Assembly: GCA_020346465.1 (NCBI GenBank)
Contig: CP070783.1
Coordinates: forward strand, 412,711 to 465,880
Direction of reading: 5' to 3'
Origin: Deltaproteobacteria bacterium
GTDB taxonomy: Bacteria > Desulfobacterota > Deferrimicrobia > Deferrimicrobiales > Deferrimicrobiaceae
DNA: 53,170 nucleotides
A program made the position numbers and the translations under genes. Positions 17,642 to 21,748 of this stretch are shown here, in pieces (position 1 is the first letter of the stretch; each line of letters begins with the position of its first letter). The notes under the pieces are model-generated. The model saw only the letters and a program-made list of their open reading frames with translations, did no database searches and had not been told where the DNA came from.

Positions 17642-18190
17642 ATGACCTGGATTCCGGCGATTGTCGCGATCGGGCTCGTCGGCTGGTTCGTCCTGACGTA
17701 CAACGTCCTCGTCCGGCTGCGCAACCAGTTCCGGAACGCCTGGTACCAGATCGACGTGCAGCTGAAACGGCGGTACGACCTCATCCCGAACCTGGTGGAG
17801 GTCGTCAAGGACTACATGGCCTACGAGCAGGAGACGCTCACCCGGGTCATCGAGGCCCGCGGCGCAGCCCTCTCCGCCAAGGGCGCGGCGGCGCAGGGGA
17901 AGGCCGAGAACGTCCTGACGGAGTCCCTGAAGAGCCTCTTCGCCGTCGTCGAGAAGTACCCCGAGCTCAAGGCGAACCAGAACGTGGCTTCCCTCCAGGA
18001 GGAGCTGACCGCCACGGAGAACAAGATCTCCTTTGCCCGCCAGTTCTACAACGACTCGGTGATGACCTACAACAACAAGATCCAGTCCATCCCGTCCAAC
18101 ATCATCGCCTCGGCGTTCGACTTCTCCCGGGCGGAATATTTCGAGGCGGGGGAGGAAAGCCGGGCCGTGCCCAGGGCGGACCTCCGGTAA
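17642..18190 (+). CDS. lemA: LemA family membrane protein
   Basis: A 182-residue protein with one N-terminal membrane helix (residues 4-22) and the LemA helical bundle. The diagnostic block is WYQIDVQLKRRYDLIPNLVEVVKDY (about 38-62; shown here in pieces by key residues: RRYDLIPNLVE), followed by TENKISFARQFYND and SIPSNIIASAFDF. The function is not established; it is often paired with HtpX-type M48 proteases, as it is here 17 bases upstream. ATG 17642 follows GAGAGGG. The start and family are clear. Confidence 0.93.
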   Translation: MTWIPAIVAIGLVGWFVLTYNVLVRLRNQFRNAWYQIDVQLKRRYDLIPNLVEVVKDYMAYEQETLTRVIEARGAALSAKGAAAQGKAENVLTESLKSLFAVVEKYPELKANQNVASLQEELTATENKISFARQFYNDSVMTYNNKIQSIPSNIIASAFDFSRAEYFEAGEESRAVPRADLR

Positions 18191-18207
18191 GGACCGCCGA
18201 AGCCGCC

Positions 18208-19293
18208 ATGGTCGCCGCGGGGAAGACGTGCCCGGGGTGCGGCGCCGCCAATCACCCGGACGCCGTGTACTGCAACCTGTGCCAGGGGCCTTTTCTCCCC
18301 GCCGGCGGTTCCCGGCTTGCGGGGGACACGGCGGGGGGCTCTCCCGGGCCGGCCACCCCCCTCCCGCGGGCGGCCCCCATGCTCTCCTTCTACGAGGCGG
18401 CCTCCCGCAACGTCCGCCTGTCCCGCCTGCTCTTTCTCGCGCTCCTCGCCTCCTTCCTCGCCGTCGGGGCAGGGATCGGGGGCACGTTCGGGAGCGTCGG
18501 CACCGGCATCGCGCTCGCGCTCATCCTCTACGCGATCCTCGCCGCCACCGCCTATTTCCGCGGGTCCTCCATCGTCCTTTCGATCCACGGCGCCCGGGAG
18601 GCGGACCGGTCCGCGCACCGGACACTGCGCAACGTCGTGGAGGAGATGAGCATCGCCTCGGGCCTTCCGGTCCCGCGCGTCTTCGTGATGGAGAGCCCGG
18701 GGATGAACGCCTTCGCCGCGGGAAGGAACCCGGAGGAGTCCCTCGTCGCGGTCACGACCGGGCTTCTCGAACGCCTGAACCGGGAGGAACTGCAGGGAGT
18801 GATCGGCCACGAGATGGCCCACATCAAGAGCCGGGACACCCTCTACTACATCTGCGCCGCGGTCCTGGTGGGGTCCATCGCCCTGATGGCAGACATGTTC
18901 CTCCGGGGGGTGCCCTTCCGGGGGAGAGGAGAGGCCGGGGGCGGACGGGGGAGTGCCGCAACCTTCGGGCTCGGGATTCTCCTGGCGATCCTCGCCCCGT
19001 TCGCCGCCCGGATCCTCCAGATGAGCATCTCCCGCCAGCGGGAGTATCACGCGGACGCCGTGGGCGCGCAGTTCACCCGGAATCCTCTCGGCCTCGCCTC
19101 CGCGCTCGAGAAGATCTCGCAGGTCGGAGCCGGCGTCCCGGGGGAGAACCGGGGGACCCAGCACCTGTTCCTCGTCAATCCCCTGCGCCATTTCCCCGAC
19201 GACGCATCCGCCCTGTTTTCCACGCATCCCTCGACCGCTCTTCGCATCAAACGACTGAAAGCGATGGCAGGGATCGGGGAGGCGACCGCTTGA
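18208..19293 (+). CDS. M48 family metalloprotease with N-terminal zinc ribbon
   Basis: HtpX-like membrane zinc protease of 361 residues. The first 30 residues form a zinc ribbon (Cys8, Cys11, Cys22, Cys25) not found in E. coli HtpX. Two hydrophobic helices follow (about 73-117). The catalytic HEMAH (201-205) is followed by the third ligand region SISRQREYHADAVGA, with its Glu. More membrane segments sit around 215-275. It probably degrades misfolded membrane proteins, together with LemA. ATG 18208 has weak upstream pairing. The gene continues the lemA operon and is followed after 25 bases by the selenoprotein gene. Confidence 0.9.
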   Translation: MVAAGKTCPGCGAANHPDAVYCNLCQGPFLPAGGSRLAGDTAGGSPGPATPLPRAAPMLSFYEAASRNVRLSRLLFLALLASFLAVGAGIGGTFGSVGTGIALALILYAILAATAYFRGSSIVLSIHGAREADRSAHRTLRNVVEEMSIASGLPVPRVFVMESPGMNAFAAGRNPEESLVAVTTGLLERLNREELQGVIGHEMAHIKSRDTLYYICAAVLVGSIALMADMFLRGVPFRGRGEAGGGRGSAATFGLGILLAILAPFAARILQMSISRQREYHADAVGAQFTRNPLGLASALEKISQVGAGVPGENRGTQHLFLVNPLRHFPDDASALFSTHPSTALRIKRLKAMAGIGEATA

Positions 19294-19318
19294 GAAGACC
19301 CCAACCGAGGAGGCGCCG

Positions 19319-19534
19319 ATGTCGCGCATCGTGACGATTTTCGGAAAGGACACCTGACCGTACACCGTCAACGCTCGTAAGGATTACGAGAAAGAGGGCG
19401 CCCGGGTGGTGTACAGGAATGTCCAGAAGGACAAGGAGGCGATGGCCGAGATGGTGACCGTCTGCAAGGGGCGGCGGGACGTCCCCGTCATCCTCGAGGC
19501 CGGCAAGGTGACGATCGGCTACGGCGGCACCTGA
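19319..19534 (+). CDS. UXX-star-type glutaredoxin-like selenoprotein (in-frame UGA = Sec13)
   Basis: Small thioredoxin-fold protein of 71 residues in which codon 13 (TGA, 19355-19357) is read as selenocysteine: FGKDT-Sec-PYT. Past the TGA the frame stays open and conserved (NARKDYEKEGARVVYRNV, then GRRDVPVILEAGKVTIGYGGT) to a second TGA at 19532. The cis-Pro motif DVPVI and the ending GYGGT are those of the UXX-star family, in which Sec or Cys occupies the same site. ATG 19319 has GAGGAGG 6 bases upstream. A perfect stem-loop lies 16 bases past the UGA (19374-19390), the expected place for a bacterial SECIS. It would be missed by standard gene calling. Redox role inferred; SelA/B/C/D are outside the window. 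Confidence 0.88.
19374..19390 (+). promoter_or_regulatory. Candidate bacterial SECIS stem-loop
   Basis: CTCGTAA-GGA-TTACGAG is a perfect 7-bp stem with a 3-base loop containing guanines. It starts 16 bases after the in-frame TGA, and the loop lies about 24 bases from it. Position and form match SelB-binding hairpins. It is inside the coding sequence of the selenoprotein. Confidence 0.75.
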
Positions 19535-19611
19535 GCAGTCTGACGGCCGCGGCCGTGGGCCGCGGTATCCGCAGCGGACGGAAGCACCCAACACGACGGG
19601 AGGACGCATCG

Positions 19612-20091
19612 ATGAAAATCCAGGAAGAATCGCTCAAGTACCTGAACCTGGGGATCAATTCCGAAATCGCGGCGTACGTCTTCTACAAGCGGGCATCCAG
19701 GATGATCGGGGACGAAAGCCTGCGGAAGGTGCTCGACGGGTTCGCCATGGACGAAAAGGGGCACTTCCTCGCGCTGGAAAACACGTACGATAAAAACGTC
19801 CGTTCCGAGATGTGGGCCCCCTACAAGGACATCCTGAGCCGGGAGGGCCTGCCCGAAATCGACGAACTGGTGCAGGACACGCACAAGGAACTGCTCGGCA
19901 GGATCGGAACTCTCAAGACCAGGAAAGACATCCTCGAGATGGCCCTCTCGCTGGAGAAGGAGGCCTTCGACCTGTTTCACGACGCCTCCGCGAAAGCGAA
20001 AGACCCCGACATCAAGAAGGTCTTCGACCACCTTGCGGACTTCGAGAAGGGGCACGTGATCACGATCGAAAAGGCCCTGGCCGCCCTGTAG
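19612..20091 (+). CDS. Ferritin-like diiron protein, rubrerythrin family
   Basis: A 159-residue four-helix-bundle protein. The diiron ligands are in place: Glu in NSEIAAYVFYKR, ExxH in DEKGHF, Glu in LEKEAFDLFHDA and ExxH in DFEKGHV. There is no rubredoxin domain, so electrons must come from a separate donor such as the rubredoxins at 36-37 kb. It likely reduces peroxide or stores iron. ATG 19612 has GGGAGG 8 bases upstream. It follows the selenoprotein gene by 77 bases in the same direction, making a plausible redox-stress group with it. Confidence 0.88.
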   Translation: MKIQEESLKYLNLGINSEIAAYVFYKRASRMIGDESLRKVLDGFAMDEKGHFLALENTYDKNVRSEMWAPYKDILSREGLPEIDELVQDTHKELLGRIGTLKTRKDILEMALSLEKEAFDLFHDASAKAKDPDIKKVFDHLADFEKGHVITIEKALAAL

Positions 20092-21261: not shown

Positions 21262-21693
21262 CTACAGGTCTTCCAGGAGCCCCGCGAAGGTGTCGTGGTG
21301 CTCCTCTTCGTCGGCCAGGATCTCCTTGAACAGCTTCTCCGTGACCTCGTCGCCTTCCTTCCTGGCCAGGAGGATGATCTTCCGGTACATCGCGATGGCG
21401 CCCTCTTCGTCCTTCTTGTCGATCTGGATCATCTCCTTGAGGGTGTTCCCGACGCGGATGGGCTCGGGTTTCGTCGTGGGGGCACCCCCAAGGTAGACGA
21501 GCCGTTCGGCGATCTCCTCCGCGTGCTTCATCTCCGAGATGGCGATCTTCTTGAACTCACCCTTCACGGCGAACCCCTTCACGCCGGTCATCTGGACGTG
21601 CTGCCACATGTACTGCACGGAGACCTGGATCTCGCGGGCGATCGCCTCGTTCAACATCTCCATCAGCTGCTTCGACGCTTTCGGGCTCTTCAT
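21262..21693 (-). CDS. Bacterioferritin-like diiron protein
   Basis: A 143-residue ferritin-superfamily protein. Ligand motifs are Glu in EAIAREIQ, ExxH in SEMKHAEE, DEEGAIAMYRK, and ADEEEHHDTFAGLLEDL at the C-terminus. The spacing fits bacterioferritin or a Dps-related iron protein; a heme-binding Met cannot be assigned. ATG 21693 has GGAG 7 bases upstream. It begins just after the terminator of the upstream porin gene and leads into mutY. Confidence 0.87.
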   Translation of the reverse strand: MKSPKASKQLMEMLNEAIAREIQVSVQYMWQHVQMTGVKGFAVKGEFKKIAISEMKHAEEIAERLVYLGGAPTTKPEPIRVGNTLKEMIQIDKKDEEGAIAMYRKIILLARKEGDEVTEKLFKEILADEEEHHDTFAGLLEDL

Positions 21694-21748
21694 CGGGACT
21701 CCCTCCTCTGCCGGGTGTGGTGATCTCTCGGAGTCTGGATTGTACCAC

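Follow-up and report, generated by a model that had tools for sequence, protein, structure and literature searches.

Two selenocysteine codons and a candidate SECIS element beyond the stop codon in a UXX-star family 1 selenoprotein gene

Introduction

On the forward strand of the window (the whole stretch of 53,170 nucleotides of DNA that was analysed), a short reading frame opens with ATG at 19319 and contains a TGA at codon 13 (19355–19357) and a further TGA at 19532–19534. Does this frame encode a selenoprotein, which of its TGA codons are read as selenocysteine (Sec), and what sets the one that ends the protein apart from the others? The initial annotation, which was made from the sequence alone, had proposed a glutaredoxin-like selenoprotein with a single Sec, at codon 13, in a frame of 72 codons ending at 19534.

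Results

The gene and its product

The gene occupies positions 19319 to 19543 (+), which are 225 bases or 74 codons plus a stop codon. Its ribosome-binding site AGGAGG (19308–19313, +) is located 5 bases upstream of the ATG and was correctly described as strong before; a similar site is present at the equivalent position in most of the 13 orthologues of the family. The product has 74 residues with the layout MSRIVTIFGKDT-U-PYT...GYGGT-U-AV-stop, where DVPVI lies between PYT and GYGGT. The start codon, the TGA at codon 13 and the motifs FGKDT-U-PYT, DVPVI and GYGGT are thus all present as first reported.

With UGA translated as Sec, the 74-residue product scores 107.9 bits against the NCBIfam model NF041114, “UXX-star selenoprotein family 1” (curated cut-off 72 bits), and covers positions 1–70 of the 70 in the model. 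The 72-codon version gives 105.3 bits, and a translated frame that reaches 105 bits with this model is more than a chance match. When UGA is read through, the Pfam glutaredoxin model PF00462 is also matched (35.9 bits, cut-off 22.9), in agreement with the proposed UXX-star glutaredoxin-like selenoprotein. Nothing else in the genome matches the UXX-star subfamily model. Judged by its sequence, the frame at 19319 is a genuine selenoprotein gene and a new member of a family that has already been named.

Selenocysteine machinery of the host

The genome is a single contig of 2.32 Mb on which selA, selB, selC and selD are all found. The selC gene scores 74.2 bits as tRNA-Sec, and ARAGORN confirms a tRNA-SeC with the anticodon tca. 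The protein genes are above their cut-offs with 552.7 bits for both pieces of selA, 332 bits for selB and 320 bits for selD. A genome lacking this machinery would have spoken against the earlier proposal that the host makes selenocysteine; the proposal stands.

The selD gene (L019, C1:501581–502384) itself has an in-frame TGA, in SSCAG-U-ASKLG. By this reading SelD is a selenoprotein in the host genome as well, and its in-frame UGA is independent evidence that the organism decodes UGA as Sec. We also considered the presence of tRNA-Sec as a discriminator between genomes. As its score is over the cut-off in 53 of 54 genomes, with the gene present or absent, it is uninformative within the phylum.

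The two selenocysteine codons

U13: The first Sec codon (TGA, 19355–19357, +) is codon 13 and corresponds to the glutaredoxin active-site position in U-P-Y-T. Among 63 non-redundant relatives, 36 have TGA and 27 have Cys at this site, the share of Cys being inflated as one search used Cys codons, and P-[YF]-T comes next. Of the 30 top loci in the phylum sample, 26 have TGA and four have Cys. The initial annotation had stated that the family uses Sec or Cys here and had named homologues with neither as the finding against it; the relatives agree with the statement.

U72: The 3' end of the gene reads TGA-GCA-GTC-TGA (19532–19543). When stops are read through, most relatives show two TGA codons, and the one at the C-terminal position (19532–19534, + in this gene) is TGA in all 63 non-redundant relatives and never TAA or TAG. 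After two to three further residues, all 63 have a stop codon of any type (TGA in 31, TAA in 19, TAG in 13), which in this gene is the TGA at 19541–19543 (+). A true stop would not be restricted to TGA, nor would another stop follow it at a set position. Hence, the TGA at 19532–19534 is not a stop but the codon of a second Sec, U72, and the protein ends with U72-A-V-stop. The tail is GYGGT-U-A-V-stop here versus GG[TS]-U-G-V-stop in most other relatives, and the name “UXX-star” most plausibly stands for U, X, X, stop. UXX-star family 1 is listed with two Sec in a 2026 review (PMC13188914). Of the earlier Sec assignment, U13 is therefore retained, and the view that it is the only one is not, as U72 had been missed together with the hairpin after the stop codon.

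Two rare homologues beyond the 63 have another residue at the C-terminal site: Cys in L059 (2496–2735; GACGV) and Ser in L064 (2989–3219; GTSGV). In both, extra residues are inserted ahead of the last strand, and the hairpins 3' of the gene are weaker.

Candidate SECIS element in the coding region

A hairpin with a perfect 7-bp stem and the loop GGA, CTCGTAA-GGA-TTACGAG, is located at 19374–19390 (+). It begins 16 bases 3' of the TGA at 19355, just as noted initially, sits within the coding region and places the loop 23 nt from the UGA. By itself the hairpin is unremarkable and of moderate strength: a hairpin that is as good or better, at the spacing of a SECIS, accompanies 19% of all TGA codons in the window, and the local fold gives z = −0.8 relative to shuffles. 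It becomes convincing only through its conservation.

The run GCTCGTANGGANTACGAG is invariant in the 14 genomes of the family except for one column pair. A19 is encoded by GCT and R20 by CGT in 14 of 14 family genomes; in the genes of the window, GCT makes up about 2% of the Ala codons and CGT about 2% of the Arg codons. Moreover, hairpins at site 13 are stronger in relatives with Sec at this site than in those with Cys (P = 9e-4). Formal covariation inside the family is confined to one pair, which 3 of the 13 sequences do not keep, and is too thin to count. Geometry and fixed rare codons, of which the conservation is the better evidence, make this hairpin a candidate SECIS element.

Candidate SECIS element beyond the stop codon

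The second hairpin, GCCGCGGCC-GTG-GGCCGCGGT (19546–19566, +), begins 2 nt after the true stop codon and is wholly outside the coding region, in the 3' UTR. Its loop is 20 nt from the UGA at 19532. Geometry demands this location for a Sec that is third from the end. With −18.1 kcal/mol, the hairpin is equalled by 0.2% of the TGA codons in the window.

At the same place, 60 of the 63 non-redundant relatives have a hairpin, mostly 1–4 nt after the stop, with a UGA-to-loop distance of 16–24 nt (14–30 nt were searched). For each relative the best hairpin per site was taken, which favours pairing, and the controls with window TGAs and gene ends were chosen likewise. The sequence of the stems varies widely while the pairing is kept: 90% of cells are paired, compared with 58% in shuffles and 22–46% in slid controls, and 117 cells are changed on both sides. 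The covariation score is 0.79 versus 0.24 in shuffles, and none of 500 shuffles scores as high. Hairpins of −7.5 kcal/mol or below are found after 77% of the UXX-star genes, whereas of 247 ends of ordinary genes in the same DNA only 1.6% have one (P ~1e-41). A search of the window against Rfam gave no match.

Strong G+C-rich hairpins 3' of genes are often transcription terminators, and the hairpin might be of this kind or a genomic repeat, in which case U72 would use another signal. We rejected this as very unlikely. Of 62 cases, 61 lack a T-rich tail (at least 5 T in 8) behind the hairpin and one has it, and a terminator scan found none at this site. The hairpin is present as a single copy in the genome when up to 2 mismatches are allowed, which does not fit a repeat. 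The spacing between UGA and loop is kept within 16–24 nt, and the Cys homologue L059, although one case only, is without a strong hairpin.

Since UGA normally ends translation and a TGA is present in frame at 19532, the protein could instead contain one Sec, at codon 13, and end at 19532–19534 after 71 residues, as was first assumed. This is very improbable in view of the invariant TGA in the 63 relatives, with a frame that runs exactly 2–3 codons on to a stop of any type. Furthermore, the curated NF041114 model extends two residues beyond the codon at 19532, a covarying hairpin is found at SECIS distance from this UGA, and two Sec are given for the family in the review (PMC13188914). The two in-frame TGA codons of such a short frame might also be nonsense mutations in a decayed glutaredoxin-like gene, but this reading deserves next to no credence, as the 14 genomes of the family and the phylum sample keep the frame together with both TGA sites and the hairpins, stops from decay would differ in type and place, and the genome has the Sec machinery.

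Predicted fold and related families

The AlphaFold model of the product is a confident glutaredoxin fold (pLDDT 94.7), and its best matches in the PDB are glutaredoxins, with query-normalised TM scores of about 0.7–0.76. Glutaredoxins (PF00462; Grx3, 3grx/1fov; A. fulgidus Grx-1, 3ic4) and the UXX-star protein are alike in predicted fold, active-site position and the VP motif. However, the UXX-star protein has no second active-site Cys (T16 takes its place) and a monothiol-like active site (U-P-Y-T), its model is without the last helix, and the protein ends with U-X-X. The alignment of Grx3 to the predicted model stops at position 69. In the model the chain terminates just beyond the strand preceding the region in which glutaredoxins bind glutathione.

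UXX-star family 1, also described as “distant Grx-like protein 1” with two Sec and the motif UxxT (PMC13188914), is matched over its full length above the curated cut-off. U-P-Y-T, the tail GG[TS]-U-X-X-stop and the two Sec are shared with this family; except for its end U-A-V in place of the commoner U-G-V, the product is an ordinary member. UXX-star families 2 and 3 and the HUGP/GUXX-star fusion (NF041211, NF047338, NF045501) have a related glutaredoxin-like domain, but the product is below the curated cut-offs of all three models. In viral contigs, ordinary glutaredoxins only were found.

Gene neighbourhood

In the window, lemA, htpX, the UXX-star gene and a gene for a rubrerythrin-like ferritin follow in a row (17642–20091). 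The htpX product is an M48 protease with an N-terminal zinc-ribbon-like segment. Most of the 14 genomes of the family have both lemA and htpX upstream, and in 13 of them the rubrerythrin-like gene adjoins the UXX-star gene downstream. A second ferritin-like gene, of the bacterioferritin type (21262–21723, −), lies a little over 1 kb past the rubrerythrin-like gene, with mutY between the two. Outside the family of the window, genes for a nucleoside diphosphate kinase and an HhH-GPD endonuclease (III/MutY-like) are near many UXX-star genes (L027, L037, L038, L039, L055, L056, L061, L072 and L074). As the neighbours differ outside this family, the neighbourhood was rejected as uninformative about function.

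Discussion

A small glutaredoxin-fold protein with two selenocysteines, both of them inserted by recoding of UGA, is very probably the best explanation of the locus as a whole.

Both hairpins agree with the published model of bacterial SECIS elements in loop length, stem length, a G within the first two bases of the loop and the UGA-to-loop spacing of 16–37 nt (PMC13188914). In that model bacterial SECIS elements are within coding regions, whereas the second hairpin is after the stop codon. The stop that follows U72 is likewise UGA in this gene, as in 31 of the 63 relatives. Lying nine bases closer to the hairpin than the UGA of U72, it is 11 nt from the loop, which is less than the 16-nt minimum of the model.

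We propose that SelB bound to the coding-region hairpin (19374–19390) would insert Sec at the UGA at 19355, and that SelB bound to the hairpin after the stop (19546–19566) would insert Sec at the UGA at 19532. The ribosome would then halt two codons further on, at the UGA at 19541, which would stay a stop because 11 nt from the second loop is too close for recoding. The finished protein of 74 residues would have U13 where glutaredoxins have their active site (monothiol type) and U72 three residues from its C-terminal end. It is likely that the 3'-UTR element recodes the UGA located nine bases before the true stop but spares the stop UGA itself; the layout suggests that the Sec UGA and the stop UGA are sorted by their distance from one hairpin.

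The protein may be a redox protein of the glutaredoxin fold or may hold a metal. U13 and U72 probably act together, either as a redox pair or by jointly coordinating a soft metal. In the first case, they would be the nucleophile and the resolving residue and form a diselenide, or a selenenylsulfide where site 13 is Cys. In the second case, both would be ligands of this metal; metal binding has been suggested for UXX-star proteins in the review (PMC13188914). We favour the redox pair and would place the metal-ligand role second. As the C-terminal Sec is nearly invariant and the internal one alternates with Cys, the C-terminal Sec seems to be the more demanding of the two.

Gene finders that treat UGA as a stop only would lose this gene entirely or, like the initial annotation, end it early. 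The gene adds a member to a known family; the points worth keeping are the candidate SECIS element in the 3' UTR and the paired UGA codons. Two independent recoding signals would serve a gene of 225 bases. If the proposed arrangement is true, it departs from the description of bacterial SECIS elements as parts of coding regions, and the family is a natural gauge of the distance required between UGA and SECIS. As about half of its members have UGA as the stop, the family would also be a convenient natural system in which to test the distance rule by which bacteria tell Sec from stop.
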